64,000 nucleotides of DNA, taken from the NCBI GenBank assembly GCA_015075635.1, contig JABTUA010000003.1, positions 248,001 through 312,000 on the forward strand, read 5' to 3'. This DNA is from Polyangiaceae bacterium. GTDB lineage: Bacteria > Myxococcota_A > Polyangia > Polyangiales > Polyangiaceae. Below are positions 32,091 to 39,658 of the stretch, piece by piece. Every line of letters starts with the position of its first letter. Positions within the stretch are counted from its first letter, which is position 1. The notes under the pieces were generated by a model. That model searched no databases. It was not told the DNA's origin and worked only from the letters and a program-made list of their open reading frames with translations. The position numbers were made by a program, and so were the translations under genes.

Positions 32091-32813
32091 ATGCGCCCCC
32101 GCGAGCTCCTCCGCCAGCCCTTCGCGGTGCTGTTCGCCGCGATGGTGCTCGCGTACCTCGGCGTGGCGCTCGCGCTGCCGGAGCTCTGGCTCCGGCTGGC
32201 CGCCAAGGAGGGACCCATCGAGCACGCCGGGCACCTGGCGCTCGGTGGCGCGGCGCTGCTCTGGCTCTGGCTCGGCACCCGCGCTGCGGGCCGCGCGCGT
32301 GCGCTCGCCCTCGGTGTGGTCGCCTACCTTCTTCTGGCAGGCCTCGAGGAGATCGACTGGGGGCAGGTGTACGGCGTCGATCTGGGACACGGCCTCGTCG
32401 CCCGCTGGACCGGAGGCTCGCCGAACTTCCACAACGCGCAGCACAGCCACTCGTCGCTCGCCACCTGGTCGGTGCTCTGGATGAGCGCGCCGATGGCGCT
32501 CTTCTTCGGCTTGCCGCTGGCCCCGCTCGGCAGAGTGCGGGCGTTCTGGGCGGGTTTTTCGCCGGTGAGCTCGCGGCTCGCGGAGGGTGTCTCGTTCTTC
32601 GGCGCCGCGTGCCTGACCGCGGTGATCGACGGACTGCCGCTGCTCGAGCGCCGCCTGGGCTACGTCCCGCGCGCGGGCTCGGGCGATCCCGTCGGCGGTC
32701 CCCTCGGCTTCTTCCAGATCGCCTTCTACCTGGCCTGGGTCCTGGTCGCGTTGCGCGCGCTCGGCGAGCTCCGACGGGGACCGAGCGCCAAGGCGCCGCC
32801 CGGTGTACCCTGA
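32091..32813 (+). CDS. Polytopic membrane protein, unknown function
   Basis: A 240-residue protein with about six hydrophobic helices. A conserved-looking, charged segment between helices contains Glu-Glu-Ile-Asp-Trp-Gly-Gln and HNAQHSHSS, so a membrane enzyme with a His/Asp site is possible, but no family is recognised. The radical SAM operon begins 18 bases after the stop in the same direction, so it may be its first gene. Confidence 0.7.
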   Translation: MRPRELLRQPFAVLFAAMVLAYLGVALALPELWLRLAAKEGPIEHAGHLALGGAALLWLWLGTRAAGRARALALGVVAYLLLAGLEEIDWGQVYGVDLGHGLVARWTGGSPNFHNAQHSHSSLATWSVLWMSAPMALFFGLPLAPLGRVRAFWAGFSPVSSRLAEGVSFFGAACLTAVIDGLPLLERRLGYVPRAGSGDPVGGPLGFFQIAFYLAWVLVALRALGELRRGPSAKAPPGVP

Positions 32814-32830
32814 GCGGACAGCGCACGTCC

Positions 32831-34591
32831 GTGAAACTCGCCTTCGTCTACCCGCCGTTCTACGCCAAGCCGTTCAACGAGAACCTGCCGACCGTCGACG
32901 ACGAGTTCGGGCTGTTCCCGCACATCGGCTTCGGCTGGGCTGCGCGCGGCGCGAAGGCGGCGGGATGGCAGGTCCGGCTCTGGGACGCTCCCGCCGAGAA
33001 GAAGTCCTTGGACCGGGTGATCCGCGAGGTCGAGGACTGGGGGCCCGATCTGGTGGCCTTCTCCGCCCACGCCGCCCAGACCATCCGTGACCTCTACGCC
33101 TGGTCCAGGCCCTTCAAGCAGCGCACGCGCCTGCCGCTGCTGGTGGGCGGCTACGAGGCCAAGGTCTACCCGCACGAGATCATGGATCAGGGGGCGTTCG
33201 ACTTCTTGTGCGGGGGCGAAGGCCACGAGCTCTTGCCCCAGCTCCTTCAGGCCTTCGAGCGCGGTCGCGGCTACGAACGTGTGCCGGAGCTGTTCTTCAA
33301 GAGCGGCGGCGAGCTCCGCCACACCTTCCCGGGCGCGCGTCCGTCGTTTCGGAGCTACCCCACACCGGATCGCAGCATCTTCGACAACTCGCTCTACTAC
33401 TCGCACATCTCGCAGCGAAAGAGCTTCACCATCGGGATGAGTGAGCTCGGCTGCCCCTATCCCTGCACCTTCTGCTGCATGCGTCAGAGCGGCTGGGACG
33501 CCCGCAGCGCAGAGCAGATCGTGGACGAGATGGCCGAGTGCGTCGCGCTCGGCATCCACGAGATCGACTGGTTCGATCCGCTGATGCTCCACGATCGGCA
33601 GCGCGCGCTGGACATCGCCCGGGAGGTCGCGCGGCGAAAGCTCGACGTGATCTGGTCGTGTCGCTCCCGGGTGGACTCGCTGAGCTTCCACGGCTCGAAG
33701 AAGCAGCCGGACCACGAGCTGATCGGCGCGCTGGCCGAGGGCGGCTGCCGCCGCATCTACTTCGGCGTCGAGAGCGGTGACGACGACGTGCTCAAGCAGA
33801 TGATGAAGGGGCAGGCGGCCTCCACCGACTTGGGCAAGACGCTCGCCGCGGTGCGGGAGGCCGGCATCATGGCCCTGGGCTTCTTCATCCTGGGCGCGCC
33901 CGGCGACACCTTGGCCAGCGTGCGACGAACCGTGGACCTGTCGCTCTCGCTGCCGCTCGCCTACGCGCAGTACCAGATCGCCGTGATCAAGCCCCACACG
34001 GAGCTCGAGCGCCGTCACGTCGTGGAGGAGCTGGGCATCGACTACTGGCGCGAGTACGTGGCCGGCAGGATCGGCGAGCACCTCTTGCCCACACCCTGGA
34101 CGGAGCTCGACCGCGCGGAGCTCGAGCGGCTGGCGCGGCGGGCCTACCTCCGCTTCTACTCCCGTCCGGGCTACGCGCTCTCCATGCTGCGGCGCGTGCA
34201 GAGCTGGGAGGAGCTCGGGCGCTACGCGCGCGTGGGCGTGCAGCTCGCGCTCCGGCCGCTCCGGCCGACCGCGGCGGCGTCCCTCGGGCGGCGCGTGGGA
34301 CGCGCGACCCTGGCCTTCGCCGAGGCGCTCTTCACAGTGGCGAGCCCCGGCGCCCGCCACGGCGTGTTCGCGAAGGGCGGCGGCGTGCGCGGCGCGCTCG
34401 AGCTCGCCCGCGACGAGGCCGCCCGGCGCCGGAGCGACAGCATGCTGACGCGCGGGCGCGTCGCCGAGCTCGGCCTGGCGAGGCCCGCCCCGGACAGCAT
34501 CCCCAACCGCTACCGCACCTTCTTCGAGACGCTGCGCGAGCGCGTGGCGCCGCTCCGGGTGAGCGGCCCGCGGGAGGTAGAGGGCAAGTGA
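32831..34591 (+). CDS. B12-binding-domain radical SAM protein
   Basis: A 586-residue protein of the BchE/P-methyltransferase-like class. The N-terminal 180 residues form a cobalamin-binding Rossmann-type domain (Val-Tyr-Pro-Pro-Phe start, Leu-Leu-Val-Gly-Gly, then Leu-Cys-Gly-Gly-Glu-Gly). The radical SAM core follows with the cluster motif GCPYPCTFCCMRQ near residue 215 and a glycine-rich strand FGVESGDDDVLKQM near 315. Such enzymes methylate or rearrange unactivated carbon. The C-terminal 150 residues are Arg-rich with no recognised fold. GTG 32831 gives the typical start. The stop overlaps the next radical SAM gene (GTGA). Confidence 0.92.
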   Translation: MKLAFVYPPFYAKPFNENLPTVDDEFGLFPHIGFGWAARGAKAAGWQVRLWDAPAEKKSLDRVIREVEDWGPDLVAFSAHAAQTIRDLYAWSRPFKQRTRLPLLVGGYEAKVYPHEIMDQGAFDFLCGGEGHELLPQLLQAFERGRGYERVPELFFKSGGELRHTFPGARPSFRSYPTPDRSIFDNSLYYSHISQRKSFTIGMSELGCPYPCTFCCMRQSGWDARSAEQIVDEMAECVALGIHEIDWFDPLMLHDRQRALDIAREVARRKLDVIWSCRSRVDSLSFHGSKKQPDHELIGALAEGGCRRIYFGVESGDDDVLKQMMKGQAASTDLGKTLAAVREAGIMALGFFILGAPGDTLASVRRTVDLSLSLPLAYAQYQIAVIKPHTELERRHVVEELGIDYWREYVAGRIGEHLLPTPWTELDRAELERLARRAYLRFYSRPGYALSMLRRVQSWEELGRYARVGVQLALRPLRPTAAASLGRRVGRATLAFAEALFTVASPGARHGVFAKGGGVRGALELARDEAARRRSDSMLTRGRVAELGLARPAPDSIPNRYRTFFETLRERVAPLRVSGPREVEGK

Positions 34592-35583
34592 AGGCCGCCG
34601 ACAAGGCCGCCGCGCTGCTGGACATGGCCAAGGTGCGCGCGCTCGGGCGCCGCATCCCGGTCGCGGTGCGCATCAACCTGAACAACCGCTGCCACTCGCG
34701 CTGCCGCTACTGCTCGTTCTGGTCCACGCCCAGCGAGGAGCTCGCGACCGGGGAGTGGCGCGCGGTCATCGCGGATCTGGGGCGGCTCGGCACGCGCCGG
34801 CTCTCCCTCTCCGGTGGCGAGCCCACGCTGCGCAAGGACCTCGCGGAGATCGTCCAGGCGGCGGTCGGCCAGGGCATCGCTACCGAGCTGAACTCCAGCG
34901 GATTCCTCTTCGCCGAGCGCAAGGACGCCCTGCGCCCCCTCGAGCTGGTGAAGCTCTCTCTCGACGGCAGCGAGCCGGTGCACGACCGCATCCGCGGCCG
35001 GGCAGGAGCCTTCCGCGAGCTCACCAGCGGGATCCGCGTGCTCGAGGAGCTCGGCGTGAAGTTCTCGTTCGCCTTCACCATGACCCGCGAGAACCTCGAC
35101 GACATCCCCTTCGCCCTGGACTTCGCCCGCCGGCACGACACCTTCGTGGCGTTCCAGCCGGTCATGGCCACGGAGCACTCGGCGGAGCAGGTGAGGCAGG
35201 AGCTGTTCCCCGACCCGGCCGACTACCGCCGCGCCATCCAGGTCCTGGTCAAGGCGAAGGTCCGGGATCCTGCTCGGCTCCGCAACAGCCTGGGCGGCCT
35301 CCGCCACATCGCGGCCTGGCCCAACATCAGCGGCCTCGCCTGCTGGGCCGGGGAGGCCTTCGCGATGATCGAGGCCAACGGCGACGTGGTGCCTTGCGAT
35401 CGCATCCGCTACGACGCGCCGATCCCGAACGTACGCACGCACGGCGTCGCCCGCGCCCTGGCCGAGCTGCCCGGCTACGAATGCGCCGGCTGTGGCTTCT
35501 GCGGCTCCGTCGAGCTGAACATGCTGATGGCTGGTCGAGTGGACATCGTGCCGAGCATCGCGCGGGTGATCCGAGCTCGCTGA
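34588..35583 (+). CDS. Radical SAM protein
   Basis: A 331-residue radical SAM enzyme with the cluster motif Cys-His-Ser-Arg-Cys-Arg-Tyr-Cys near residue 35 and the Gly-Gly-Glu-Pro-Thr motif near 82. The C-terminal part has Val-Val-Pro-Cys-Asp and then CAGCGFCGSVELN, a short SPASM-like set of cysteines that could bind an extra iron-sulphur cluster. This pattern is found in peptide- or small-molecule-modifying members such as the MoaA/SPASM group. GTG 34588 overlaps the upstream stop by four bases. A 220-base spacer with hairpins separates it from the next radical SAM gene. Confidence 0.9.
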   Translation: MKAADKAAALLDMAKVRALGRRIPVAVRINLNNRCHSRCRYCSFWSTPSEELATGEWRAVIADLGRLGTRRLSLSGGEPTLRKDLAEIVQAAVGQGIATELNSSGFLFAERKDALRPLELVKLSLDGSEPVHDRIRGRAGAFRELTSGIRVLEELGVKFSFAFTMTRENLDDIPFALDFARRHDTFVAFQPVMATEHSAEQVRQELFPDPADYRRAIQVLVKAKVRDPARLRNSLGGLRHIAAWPNISGLACWAGEAFAMIEANGDVVPCDRIRYDAPIPNVRTHGVARALAELPGYECAGCGFCGSVELNMLMAGRVDIVPSIARVIRAR

Positions 35584-35615
35584 AGCGTCGAGCGAGCTGG
35601 TGTAGGCTGGGGAGC

Positions 35616-35803
35616 ATGGTGCGTCGTGAAGGAATCGGCTCCGCGCCCGCTCACGCGGTCGCTGCGCCGATTCCACGCTGCACTTTTCCTACGGGTGCAA
35701 GTCCCGTCCCGGTAAGCGTCGGTGCGCCGGGTAGCAGGCCCCAGGTATCGGAGGGAGACCTCCATGCCCGAGCGGCCGACTGCACGAAGGCGGGCTTCAC
35801 CAA
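35616..35803 (+). ncRNA. Candidate structured RNA in the spacer between two radical SAM genes
   Basis: The spacer contains at least five helices in a row: GGAATCGG/CCGATTCC (35631-35638 with 35667-35674), CCGCG/CGCGG inside it (35641-35645 with 35654-35658), ACGGG/CCCGT closing a TGCAAGT loop (35691-35707), CCCGG/CCGGG (35708-35731) and GGAGG/CCTCC capped by a GAGA tetraloop (35750-35763). Third-position GC in the overlapping small frame is far lower than in the neighbours, which favours RNA over protein. GTGCG at 35619 and the GGGTGCAAGTCCC hairpin recall group II intron 5' parts, but no intron body follows. A cis-regulatory element for the downstream radical SAM gene is the other option. 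Confidence 0.5.
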
Positions 35804-35816
35804 GTGCGCGCTCTGA
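35616..35816 (+). CDS. Possible small Cys-containing peptide overlapping the structured spacer
   Basis: A 66-residue frame from ATG 35616 to TGA 35814-35816, preceded by GGGGAG and overlapping the start of the next radical SAM gene by 13 bases. It contains three cysteines (Arg-Cys-Thr, Asp-Cys-Thr, Lys-Cys-Ala), the last two close to the C-terminus. A precursor peptide for the flanking radical SAM enzymes would be expected in exactly this place. Against this, about a third of its codons end in A or T, unlike real genes here, and only the last 15 codons look coding. Confidence 0.25.
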   Translation: MVRREGIGSAPAHAVAAPIPRCTFPTGASPVPVSVGAPGSRPQVSEGDLHARAADCTKAGFTKCAL

Positions 35817-36814
35817 TCGGCAGCGCCGGGCGCTTCGTCGCCGCGTCCGTCCTCGGCCGCCCCCAGCTCCTGGGCGTCGGCTGGGCCATCACTCACCGCT
35901 GCAACTCGCGCTGCGCGTTCTGCAGCCGGCACAGCGGGCCCGACGGGCTGCCGACGGAGGCGGCGCTAGACGTGATCGACCAGCTCGCCGAGCTCGGCTG
36001 CCGACGCGTCCACTTCACCGGCGGCGAGCCGCTGGTCCGCAAAGATCTGCCGGCGCTGCTCCGGCAGGTGCGCCGAGACGGCATGACCAGCAGCGTGAAC
36101 ACCAACGGTGCGCTGCTCCCCGAGCGCCCGGAGGTCGTCGCGACCGCGGATTCATTCCTGGTCAGCGTGGACGGCCCGGAGGCCATCCACGATCGCTATC
36201 GAGGTGAAGGCTCGTTCGCCAAGCTGAGCGCCGGGCTCGGGCTGCTGGCGCGCGCGGAGAAACCCTTCGTGCTCTCGGTCACTTTGTTCCGCGAGAACCT
36301 GGAGCAGCTGCCCTACCTGATCGGGCTGGCTCGACGCTACGGCACGCGCATCGTGGTCCAGCCCGGAGCGACCCATGTGCTGGGCTCGGGAGAGCCGAAC
36401 CCCGAGATGCCGGAGGTCCGGCGTTACCGCCAGGTGCTCCGCGAGCTGCTCGACGATCCCCGGGCCATGCGCCAGATCTGGAACTCGCCTCGTGGTCTGC
36501 GCGAGCTCATGCGCTACCCCGACCAACACCGACTGCGCACACACGCCGGGAGAATCACGGCGCGCCTGGAGGTGGACGGCCGGATGTTCCCCTGCTCCCG
36601 CAGCGTGAACGACCCGAGCGCGCTCCCGGCGCCCAACGTGCTGGAGCTCGGCGTGCGCGAGGCGTTCCGGCGCCTGCCGCGCATCGATTGCTCGGGGCAC
36701 GTCTGTCAGTGCGCGCACAACGTCGAGAAGAACCTGCTCTTCGGCCTCTGGCCGAGCTCCTGGTGGAACCTCGCCACGCGTCGCTTCGGCGAGCTCCGCA
36801 GGATGGCAGGGTGA
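35804..36814 (+). CDS. Radical SAM protein
   Basis: A 336-residue radical SAM enzyme related to the one at 34588 (same size and layout). Cluster motif Cys-Asn-Ser-Arg-Cys-Ala-Phe-Cys near residue 33; HFTGGEPLVRKDL near 72; SVDGPEAIHDRYRG near 125. Near the C-terminus, Met-Phe-Pro-Cys-Ser and CSGHVCQCAHN could supply ligands for a second cluster. The GTG start at 35804 lacks a strong ribosome-binding site. The stop overlaps the flippase-like gene (GTGA). Two paralogous enzymes plus a B12-type one suggest successive steps of one pathway. Confidence 0.9.
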   Translation: MRALIGSAGRFVAASVLGRPQLLGVGWAITHRCNSRCAFCSRHSGPDGLPTEAALDVIDQLAELGCRRVHFTGGEPLVRKDLPALLRQVRRDGMTSSVNTNGALLPERPEVVATADSFLVSVDGPEAIHDRYRGEGSFAKLSAGLGLLARAEKPFVLSVTLFRENLEQLPYLIGLARRYGTRIVVQPGATHVLGSGEPNPEMPEVRRYRQVLRELLDDPRAMRQIWNSPRGLRELMRYPDQHRLRTHAGRITARLEVDGRMFPCSRSVNDPSALPAPNVLELGVREAFRRLPRIDCSGHVCQCAHNVEKNLLFGLWPSSWWNLATRRFGELRRMAG

Positions 36815-37656
36815 GCGCACCCGCCCGGCGCGTCTGGCTCTTCGCGCTGAGCGTCGTCGTCTCGCTCGGCCTCTGCGCGCTCTTGTTTCGGCAGATCGCC
36901 GCCGCGGAAGTCGGCGCCGTGCTGGCTCGGGCCGAGCCCACCGCACTTGCGCTGGCGCTGGGGACGGCGCTCACCGTCAATCTCCCGCTCTCGGCGCTGG
37001 CGCTCGGGAGCGCGCTCGCGGCACACGGCGTGAAGGTCCCTCGGCTCCTGGCGATGAAGGCCACGCTGGGGCACCTGGCCCTGCACGCCGGCGCGAGCTT
37101 CGTGGTCGGCAAGGGCGCGCGCGCGCTGTACCTGGCTCGCGTCCACGGCGTGGACGCCAAGAGCGCGCTCGGGGCCGAGCTCACGCTGCTCGGGCTGAAG
37201 GTGCTGGCGCTGCTGACCGTGGCGGCGAGCGGCGCCCTGCTCGGCGGCGCGCTGTGGGTCCTGCCTTGCGCGACGCTGGCGCTGCTCGCGGCCTGGGTGT
37301 GGATGCGCCGTCGCGGCGCCACGGTCGCTGCGCTCGCAGCTTCGTTCGGGTGGGCGCTCGGAATGGGCGTGGGGCAGCTCGCGGTGTTCGCGCTGGCGCT
37401 CCGGGCGCTCGGGCTGGCGATCCCCGCCGCCGCGCTGCTCGCCTGGTTCCCGCTCTGCCTGCTCGGGGCGAAGCTGCCTCTCGCCTGGCTCGGGCTCGGC
37501 CTGCGCGAAGCGCTGGTGGTCGTGCTGTTTCGCGGGAGCGCGCCGGCCGAGGCGCTGCTCGCCGCCTCGCTGGTCTTCAGTCTGCTCGAGCAGGTGCTGC
37601 CCGGTCTCCTGGGGCTGGTCTTCGCGCCGCGTTTCCTGGCGCGCACGCTGGGATGA
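36811..37656 (+). CDS. Flippase-like membrane protein (LPG synthase TM-domain family)
   Basis: A 281-residue membrane protein with about seven helices and small polar loops, of the type called lysylphosphatidylglycerol synthase transmembrane region or UPF0104. The family often sits with lipid or glycan biosynthesis genes and is thought to flip lipid-linked products; the MprF synthase domain is absent. The GTG start overlaps the upstream radical SAM stop by four bases, so it belongs to the same operon and probably exports or flips the product. It is the last gene: the next gene converges four bases away. Confidence 0.78.
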   Translation: MSAPARRVWLFALSVVVSLGLCALLFRQIAAAEVGAVLARAEPTALALALGTALTVNLPLSALALGSALAAHGVKVPRLLAMKATLGHLALHAGASFVVGKGARALYLARVHGVDAKSALGAELTLLGLKVLALLTVAASGALLGGALWVLPCATLALLAAWVWMRRRGATVAALAASFGWALGMGVGQLAVFALALRALGLAIPAAALLAWFPLCLLGAKLPLAWLGLGLREALVVVLFRGSAPAEALLAASLVFSLLEQVLPGLLGLVFAPRFLARTLG

Positions 37657-37659
37657 ACG

Positions 37660-38880
37660 TCACTTGTAGTACATGCGGCGCACGACGTCGGCCTCGGTGA
37701 TGAAGAGATCACCGGTGCCGGGATCGAAGTGCACGTCCGTCGGCTTGTTGAACGCCGCCGCCGCGCCCACGCCTTCGGCGTGGTTCTGGTTGCCGGCCGT
37801 GCCGGCGATGGTGGACACGTTGAGCGACTTGGGGTTGACCTTCCGGATCACGAAGTTGTCGCTGTCCGCCACCAGCAGCTCGGCGCCGTCGCTGGTCACG
37901 CCGCGCAGCCGGTTGAGCTGCGCGACGGTCCCCACGCCGTCCGCCCAGCCCTGAGTCGAGCCAACGGGAGAGCTGACCGTGGAAGCGGCGGCGCTGTTGC
38001 CCGCGATGACCTTTCGCAACCGGTGGTTCTCGGTGTCACCCACCCAGATCTCGTTGTTGAAGGCTCCGAGCGCCCGCGGCGAGCTGAACTGGGCGAGGTT
38101 GCCCGGTCCGTCCGCGGAGCCGGCGCCGTTTTTTCCCGCCAGCGTCACGACCGCGCCGGTCTTCGGATCGATCTCGCGGACGGCGTGGTTGCCGGCTTCC
38201 ACCAACACGAGCCGCCCGCCGACCAGCTCGAGCCCGCGCGGCGCGTTGAACTGAGCCGCCGCGCCGACGCCGTCCGCCACACCCGCGACTCCCTGCGTCC
38301 CGGCCAGCGTCTTCACCGTGCCGCTGGCGAGATCGACGGCGCGCAGGGTCTGGTTCATCGACTCGGCGACCCAGAGCGTCTTGCCGTCGGTAGCCAGGCC
38401 GCCGATGCCGCTGAAGCGAGCTGCCGTGCCGACGGCGTTCACGTACCCCGGCTGTCCCGGTTGACCGGCGAGCGTGCTCACGGTCGCGCTGCTGATCTCG
38501 ATGCGCTGGATGGCGTCGCTCGAGCCGACGTAGACGTAGTTGCCGTCGCCGGTGATGGCGCCCAGGCTGGTGAAGCGCGCCTGCTTGCCGACGCCGTTGG
38601 CGTTGCCCGGTTGCCCGAACTGACCCGCCCAGTCGATCACGCAGCCGGTGGCGGTGCCCGGACAGGTCGCCGCGCCGCCGCTGCCCCCACCGGACGTTCC
38701 GCCTCCTGCCGTGGAGCCGCCGCTGCCGCCAGCTCCGCCGCCGGCGCCTGCCGCTCCTCCCCCGCCGGCGGAGCCTCCGCTGGCCGTGGAGCCGCCGCTG
38801 CCCTGGGCCGAGAACTCCTCGCCGCCGCAGCTCGTGGTGCCGAGACAGAGCAAGAAGAGCGCAGCGACCGACGGCTTCAT
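37660..38880 (-). CDS. NHL-repeat beta-propeller lipoprotein
   Basis: A 406-residue lipoprotein (Thr-Ser-Cys-Gly lipobox near residue 19), with a Gly/Ser-rich linker to about residue 75 and then a beta-propeller of about six NHL-like blades. Each blade carries an Ala-Asp-Gly-Val-Gly...Ala-Gln-Phe-Asn-x-Pro pattern and a Leu-Trp-Val-Ala-Glu or Ile-Trp-Val-Gly-Asp strand. NHL propellers are binding scaffolds; no ligand is known. It diverges from the lipoprotein gene at 38987 across a 106-base gap. Confidence 0.88.
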   Translation of the reverse strand: MKPSVAALFLLCLGTTSCGGEEFSAQGSGGSTASGGSAGGGGAAGAGGGAGGSGGSTAGGGTSGGGSGGAATCPGTATGCVIDWAGQFGQPGNANGVGKQARFTSLGAITGDGNYVYVGSSDAIQRIEISSATVSTLAGQPGQPGYVNAVGTAARFSGIGGLATDGKTLWVAESMNQTLRAVDLASGTVKTLAGTQGVAGVADGVGAAAQFNAPRGLELVGGRLVLVEAGNHAVREIDPKTGAVVTLAGKNGAGSADGPGNLAQFSSPRALGAFNNEIWVGDTENHRLRKVIAGNSAAASTVSSPVGSTQGWADGVGTVAQLNRLRGVTSDGAELLVADSDNFVIRKVNPKSLNVSTIAGTAGNQNHAEGVGAAAAFNKPTDVHFDPGTGDLFITEADVVRRMYYK

Positions 38881-38986
38881 TCCCGACACGCTACCCCCGA
38901 CTATCGCATCTTCCACGCGCCCAGTCAGTCCGTAGAGTCCGTCAATGACATTGGTCAAGAGCGCGATCGCCGCTAACCTTCCGGGA

Positions 38987-39658
38987 ATGAAGTCCGCCAT
39001 CCGCAAGCTCCGCGCGCCGTTCGTCGTCACCGCGACCCTCGCGGGCGCGGCCACACTCGCCTGCGGCGGGGAGACCGACTCGTCCGCCGGGGGCACCGGC
39101 GGGAGCGGGGGCTCGGGCGCCACCGGCGGCAACGGCGCGACGGGCGGCAGCGGCGCGACCGGCGGATCCGGCGCCGTGGGCGGAAGCGGCGCGACGGGCG
39201 GCAGCGGCGGAGCACCTGGCTGCCCGGCGGCCCCACCGAGCTCGTTCGGCCCGTGCACGATCGCCGCGGGTGAGAAGTGCACCTACGAGATCCCCTGCCA
39301 GAGCGGCAAGCAGACCTTCATCTACACCTGCGCGCCCGAGCCGAGCTTCGCGCCCTGGCAGATCGAGCCGAAGGCCTGCGACCCAGCCAAGCCCTACGAC
39401 TCGTGCCCCAACACCGACCTCTACTGCGGCAGCGGAGGCTGGTCGATCCCGCAGGGCACGAATCCGCCGTCACCCTGTCCCAGCGTGCCGCCCAAGCTCG
39501 GCGAGCAGTGCTACGCCGGCGGCTTCGGCGGAGTCTGGGAGAGCTGCGGCTACCCGTGCAGCACCGCCAGCGGCACCAGCGGCTGGACGGTGATGAAGTG
39601 CCTCTACAACCCCGATGGCGGTCCGAGCGCCTGGGAAGTCGGCACCGACTGCAAGTGA
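38987..39658 (+). CDS. Gly-rich linker lipoprotein with Cys-containing domain
   Basis: A 223-residue lipoprotein (Leu-Ala-Cys-Gly lipobox near residue 25). A repeated Gly-Ala-Thr-Gly-Gly-Ser linker (about 30-75) leads to a domain of about 145 residues with twelve cysteines and several aromatic residues, with no recognised family. ATG 38987 was chosen because it gives a good signal peptide. It ends six bases before the convergent HAD hydrolase gene. Confidence 0.75.
   Translation: MKSAIRKLRAPFVVTATLAGAATLACGGETDSSAGGTGGSGGSGATGGNGATGGSGATGGSGAVGGSGATGGSGGAPGCPAAPPSSFGPCTIAAGEKCTYEIPCQSGKQTFIYTCAPEPSFAPWQIEPKACDPAKPYDSCPNTDLYCGSGGWSIPQGTNPPSPCPSVPPKLGEQCYAGGFGGVWESCGYPCSTASGTSGWTVMKCLYNPDGGPSAWEVGTDCK

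Follow-up and report, generated by a model that had tools for sequence, protein, structure and literature searches.

What might be made by a compact run of genes that encodes three radical SAM enzymes and a flippase-like membrane protein, and does the run constitute a pathway in its own right? The question is raised by positions 32091 to 37656 of the window, by which we mean the whole 64,000-nucleotide stretch of a Polyangiaceae genome analysed here. The operon amounts to a compact, testable pathway that occurs in few species and has no described product, and the search for an answer also led into the 220 nt that separate two of its genes.

Gene families and junctions

Five genes make up the set, all on the same strand.

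P1, 32091–32813, plus strand: polytopic membrane protein of no named family; orthologs lie beside P5 or P2 in loci L024, L025, L026 and L027
P2, 32831–34591, plus strand: B12-binding radical SAM enzyme, CxxxCxxC at C208/C212/C215; nearest solved chain AprD4
P3, 34588–35583, plus strand: SkfB/PqqE-like radical SAM/SPASM enzyme; 4-nt GTGA overlap with P2
P5, 35804–36814, plus strand: BlsE/PqqE/SkfB-like radical SAM enzyme; GTG start matches the N terminus of the L026 ortholog
P6, 36811–37656, plus strand: flippase-like LPG_synthase_TM protein; 4-nt GTGA overlap with P5

An earlier note, made from the DNA alone, had described a B12-binding radical SAM enzyme, two relatives with extra C-terminal cysteines, a flippase-like protein and a preceding membrane protein, and the domain searches bear out each of these. 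P2 carries both expected domains above their gathering scores (B12-binding, 54.7 against 32.1 bits; Radical_SAM, 57.5 against 29.5 bits), as does P3 (Radical_SAM, 75.4 against 29.5 bits; SPASM, 23.3 against 21.5 bits), while in P5 Radical_SAM is the only one of the latter two to pass. The additional cysteines are conserved among orthologs, being C252, C270, C299, C302 and C305 in the alignment of P3, and C264, C296 and C301, all invariant, in P5, where C303 is kept in four of five. P6 passes the LPG_synthase_TM threshold (PF03706, 38.9 against 33.4 bits), and a search against solved sequences returned nothing convincing for it. The protein ahead of the enzymes is P1, whose predicted structure is mostly helical and whose orthologs share the invariant residues E44-H45-A46, E86-E87-x-D89 and N112-x-H114. 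The Pfam-type search that typed the other four proteins found no domain in P1, and no sequence relative was found among solved proteins. Structural identification was rejected, the best Foldseek E value being 0.1 and the VIA Z scores, to rhodopsins and GPCRs, reaching at most 7.9; for helical bundles, such a likeness of a predicted model may be just a common arrangement.

The note had also taken the genes to be joined by GTGA overlaps. This is so for P2/P3 (34588–34591) and P5/P6 (36811–36814), each of 4 nt, but not for P3 and P5, which are spaced by 220 nt (35584–35803). P1 and P2 are 17 nt apart.

Recurrence in other genomes

The note had proposed comparison of gene neighbourhoods as a check, and we searched for P5 orthologs in 97 related genomes, mostly drafts, and matched the best loci with all five proteins. 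Orthologs of all five are found together in five genomes of the order, counting that of the window (G000, G001, G002, G066 and G081), and partial sets occur in three more (G134, G201 and G018), with varying gene orders; the co-occurrence that the note had asked for is thus borne out. The two congeners, G001 and G002, carry P1-P2-P3 and P5-P6 on opposite strands, diverging from a short shared start region, and have the same outer neighbours as the window. G066, from another family, has a P5-P6-P2-P3 operon in which each junction overlaps by 4–10 nt, with P1 divergent, and in G081 the genes are split over two contigs as P1-P5-DegT and P6-P2-P3. Of the partial sets, that of G134 comprises P2, P5, P6 and a weak P1-like protein, and those of G201 and G018 combine P2 with another PqqE-like radical SAM protein and a flippase-like protein. 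Relative both to its congeners and to G066, where P1 diverges from P5, the P1-P2-P3 block of the window is inverted. Ortholog identity is 56–83% within the genus and about 31–68% in other families, and in a phylogeny built from 26 related radical SAM proteins the P3 sequences cluster as one group (support 100/99), as do those of P5 (84/79).

Across the phylum, strong P2 orthologs (>1000 bits) were found in 9 of 379 sampled genomes and more distant relatives (340–404 bits) in 26 further genomes of the same sample. A scan of named genomes for P2 gave much the same set; in addition it returned one genome labelled Gemmatimonadetes and three belonging to the Bdellovibrio side. Because the five orthologs recur together, and in differing orders, the module is, as judged from these comparisons, real, rare, mosaic and old, and P1, P2, P3, P5 and P6 appear as a conserved, dedicated biosynthetic unit.

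Further radical SAM genes were seen in some of these neighbourhoods. In G066 a dense group adjoins the module (L026:9317-16000 and 1-310); one of its genes is fused to a methyltransferase domain, and another, at the contig edge, is possibly a truncated one. Several kilobases from the module, both congeners (L024:1611-3751 and L025:12914-15114) hold another radical SAM gene beside a glycosyltransferase, of group 1 type by Pfam in L024; a search of the window genome at E 1e-30 gave no counterpart.

Possible products of the module

The note recognised no characterised pathway, and neither do we: no specific NCBIfam model reaches its cut-off in any module protein, all falling far below, and no relevant report of the gene set was found in the open-access literature searched. 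Since all subfamily scores lie so far below cut-off, the substrate class has to be read from remote homology.

P2 scores best with HpnJ (TIGR03471; 3.5e-29, 102 bits against a cut-off of 577.6) and the AprD4 diol dehydratase (NF033070; 3.9e-29, 101.8 bits against 500), both ahead of methylases, and among solved chains its profile finds AprD4 first (6fd2, E 3.1e-28) and OxsB next. Its predicted structure (pLDDT 53) was left unused. AprD4 is a radical SAM diol dehydratase that acts on paromamine and dehydrates the sugar ring (PMC5461906); OxsB and HpnJ belong to the small number of B12 radical SAM enzymes that do not methylate, and they form or rearrange rings (PMC13142503). Although P2 shares the B12-type radical SAM architecture of AprD4 and HpnJ, it has a near-invariant NENLPTVDDEFGLFPHIGFGW block of its own and is extended at the C terminus, and no aminoglycoside or hopanoid genes lie near it. 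The P5 profile finds cytosylglucuronate decarboxylase (BlsE; 1.2e-15) ahead of PqqE and SkfB, and the P3 profile is closest to SkfB and PqqE. With these enzymes P3 and P5 share the radical SAM core and C-terminal cysteines fit for an auxiliary cluster; the homology is, however, mostly confined to the core, and no nucleoside, PQQ or sporulation-killing-factor genes were seen with P3 or P5. P6 resembles MprF and the TIGR00374 flippase-like proteins in passing the PF03706 cut-off, yet it has no aminoacyl-transferase domain and fails the TIGR00374 threshold (13.8 against 43.2 bits).

We tentatively propose, at a probability of about 40%, that the enzymes of the module edit a lipid-linked (amino)sugar or polyol by successive radical reactions and that the product is then flipped. 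P2 would perform a non-methylating, B12-type radical reaction on the sugar or polyol head group, such as a dehydration, deoxygenation or ring change of the kind known from AprD4- and HpnJ-like enzymes. P3 and P5 would add further radical steps using auxiliary iron-sulfur clusters, a DegT enzyme could add an amino group in some relatives, and P6 would move the finished lipid-linked product across the inner membrane, with P1 as its membrane partner or as a processing enzyme. We favour the editing of a sugar because the solved chains nearest to P2 and P5 are sugar-modifying and because DegT aminotransferases and glycosyltransferases adjoin relatives of the module. A DegT gene overlaps P5 by 4 nt in G081, another stands with P2 and the flippase-like gene in G201, and others lie beside more distant P2 relatives in L056, L058, L093 and L094; by eye, these proteins have a lysine in the expected place. 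Glycosyltransferases of GT2 and PMT_2 type occur near distant P2 relatives. Against this reading, P3 is closest to peptide-modifying enzymes (SkfB, PqqE), and the window module itself holds no glycosyltransferase, carrier-lipid enzyme or DegT gene; the G081 DegT protein, used as a query, had no match in G000, G001, G002, G066 or G134. That PF03706 proteins act as flippases is itself mostly an inference. The module could yield new chemistry on membrane glycolipids.

It is unlikely, in our estimate, that the lipid part is edited instead of the head group, with ring formation or C–C coupling in acyl or isoprenoid chains, by analogy to ladderane or tetraether synthesis, and P6 flipping the lipid. 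P2 does weakly match a ladderane-type B12 radical SAM model (2.8e-21, below cut-off), and the tetraether synthase chain 7tol is a weak match for both P3 and P5, but these matches are weaker than those to AprD4, HpnJ, BlsE, PqqE and SkfB, and neither fatty-acid nor isoprenoid genes were seen repeatedly beside the module.

The affinity of P3 to SkfB and PqqE, together with several peptide-maturase models that score in P3 and P5, would suit a RiPP whose precursor is modified by P3 and P5, alkylated or cross-linked by P2 and exported by P6. We regard this as quite improbable. In G066 each of the four enzyme genes overlaps the next, in G002 the module ends within about 12 nt of its neighbours, and P6 is not of a peptide-export type. 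No precursor gene was found in the cluster, nor a gap for one in L024 and L026. The only small frame that is open in the P3–P5 gap of the window (35616–35816, tail CTKAGFTKCAL) was considered as a precursor and rejected, being derived from an intron. A locally encoded precursor is unlikely, then, because intact relatives leave no room for it. Of the lipid- or peptide-linked substrate that the earlier note had envisaged ahead of membrane transfer, the lipid-linked form remains the best guess, read from homology, and the peptide-linked form is disfavoured.

Very little credence can be given to a hopanoid side-chain pathway in which P2 stands in for HpnJ. HpnJ is the best NCBIfam match of P2 by a hair, but at less than a fifth of the cut-off in bits, and the squalene-hopene cyclase domain SQHop_cyclase_N (PF13249), present in G081 and G357 only, had no match in G000, G001, G002, G018, G066, G134 or G201, which largely refutes such a pathway.

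Some neighbourhoods of distant P2 relatives are of interest in themselves. L058:1472-21781 (Bdellovibrionales) assembles several B12-type radical SAM genes, DegT and two GT2 glycosyltransferases around one of them. A second P2-like family repeatedly adjoins P2 relatives (L091:5119-6552, L093:4805-6280 and L099:5105-6505), with an HPENVM motif, by eye, in L091 and L099 and a variant in L093. More distant relatives, of the YPPYGAIKNEPG type, lie beside PMT_2-like glycosyltransferases (L095:8070-13085, L100:1468-12988 and L101:8954-13408; scored in L095 only, below cut-off), and two of these three loci also hold a carbamoyltransferase-like protein, named by eye only.

The probable intron remnant ahead of P5 and its lineage

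The gap between P3 and P5 contains the following features.

35603–35608, plus strand: original -10-like box of P5, TAGGCT; congeners have TAAAGT at nearly the same spacing
35616–35618, plus strand: original ATG of P5, now separated from the P5 body by the intron remnant
35619–35782, plus strand: 5' part of a group II intron remnant (GTGCGTCGTGA...); 3' limit approximate
35616–35816, plus strand: open 66-aa frame MVRREGIGS...TKCAL, the remnant of a frame that spans the intron in full-length copies

The gap matches Rfam RF02003 at 35689–35822 with 44 bits, short of the gathering score of 49 (E 1.1e-8, searching 401 nt); close relatives of the element pass, with 62–82 bits. About 164 nt are kept (35619 to about 35782); no domain V/VI match (RF00029) was found in 35500–39500, and no reverse transcriptase frame is left, the frame stopping after 66 aa. 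By these comparisons the gap appears to hold a degenerate group II intron lying directly behind the original ATG of P5. Congeners read TAAAGT-cgcggc-ATG at this point and the window TAGGCT-ggggagc-ATG^intron remnant; from this order of box, ATG and remnant, the intron appears to have struck P5's own start codon. P5 would now be read from the GTG at 35804, out of frame with the old ATG, and the enzyme is probably still made, since this GTG sits at the start of the G066 ortholog. The preceding bases, GAAGGCGGGCTTCACCAA-GTG, are similar to the end that the intron usually has, AAGGATCTACCA-ATG, and could be the intron's last trace. The intron was also considered as the breakpoint of the P1-P2-P3 inversion and rejected, since P5's box and ATG are kept upstream of it; the breakpoint accordingly lies between the P3 stop (35583) and about 35602, with the intron just inside.

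Relatives of the element lie at start codons as well. The 5' end of the intron in this lineage, GTGCGYCGTGA, directly follows a start codon, and among 21 distinct flanks of at least 30 nt (eight from G071, three each from G020 and G043, two from G168 and one each from G003, G031, G042, G067 and the window) this codon is ATG in 20 and GTG in one. The loci of the lineage are window 35603–35782, L120–L129, L131, L133, L134, L136 and L138–L154, with empty sites in L155 and L160. A TAnnnT box starts 14–18 nt before the junction in 21/21 flanks; in comparable DNA such a box precedes 1.1% of all ATGs, and among called gene starts it precedes 22 of 112. The spacing would fit the -10 box of a leaderless or nearly leaderless start. 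At the other end, the eight G071 copies terminate in ...GGTAAGGATCTACCA and are immediately followed by the ATG of a host gene, a different one for each copy; the third-position GC of these eight frames is 0.91–0.96.

Two exact empty sites were found in G086, which is of the same genus as the filled-site genome. In moaC the empty site reads CGCTACGCTCGCGAG-ATG-AGCGACGAGCTC and the filled one CGCTACGCTCGCGAG-ATG^intron^ATG-AGCGACGAGCTC; in a second gene GGTACCGTCGCGCGCG-ATG-AGCGAGGAC corresponds to GGTACCGTCGCGCGCG-ATG^intron^ATG-AGCGACGAC. Insertion therefore happens at the ATG and leaves one ATG on each side. The insertion-site rule and both empty sites are direct observations.

Like mobile bacterial group II introns of the RF02003 type, the lineage has a GTGCG 5' end, a D1–D4 region, a reverse transcriptase with maturase domain and domain V/VI (matched by Rfam in copies of G071, G020 and G043), but it differs from them in sitting at start codons behind a -10-like box, with ATG on both sides. 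No HNH endonuclease was found in the copies, the junctions of the other group II introns examined in G000 and G005 lack an ATG, and no report of start-codon introns was found in the open-access literature searched. We consider it likely that the scar belongs to an undescribed group II intron lineage of Myxococcota that homes to the start codons of leaderless-type genes, entering behind TAnnnT and ATG, borrowing that promoter and ATG, and rebuilding AAGGA...ATG at its own 3' end. Insertion would then be nearly harmless, since the host gene regains an AAGGA...ATG start, and an endonuclease-less intron might enter through the single-stranded transcription bubble of the promoter.

Sharing of the start codon by the intron's own frame is suggested by copies in which no stop interrupts the frame from the host ATG across the intron RNA and into the reverse transcriptase (G071, one G020 copy, G003, G031 and G043). 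It is no more than suggested because the frame is closed in others (172 codons in G067; 389 in two G020 copies) and because codon-position differences in the intron RNA part (969/1064/1111 at positions 1/2/3 over 4359 codon pairs) give little sign of protein-level constraint.

The intron lineage is arguably a more surprising result than the operon. If confirmed, it would show a new way for a selfish element to settle in important genes without destroying them (one copy is at moaC) and would offer a natural means of putting cargo at start codons; the use of promoter-melted DNA as a target by endonuclease-less introns would become directly testable. A different group II intron type is present in G000 in at least three equal-scoring copies (contigs C1, C2 and C3; L044 and L041–L043), and the 5' junctions read there show no ATG. 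In G020 (L121:162-6790), one copy of the start-codon lineage is inserted at the ATG that ends another copy, forming a tandem array.
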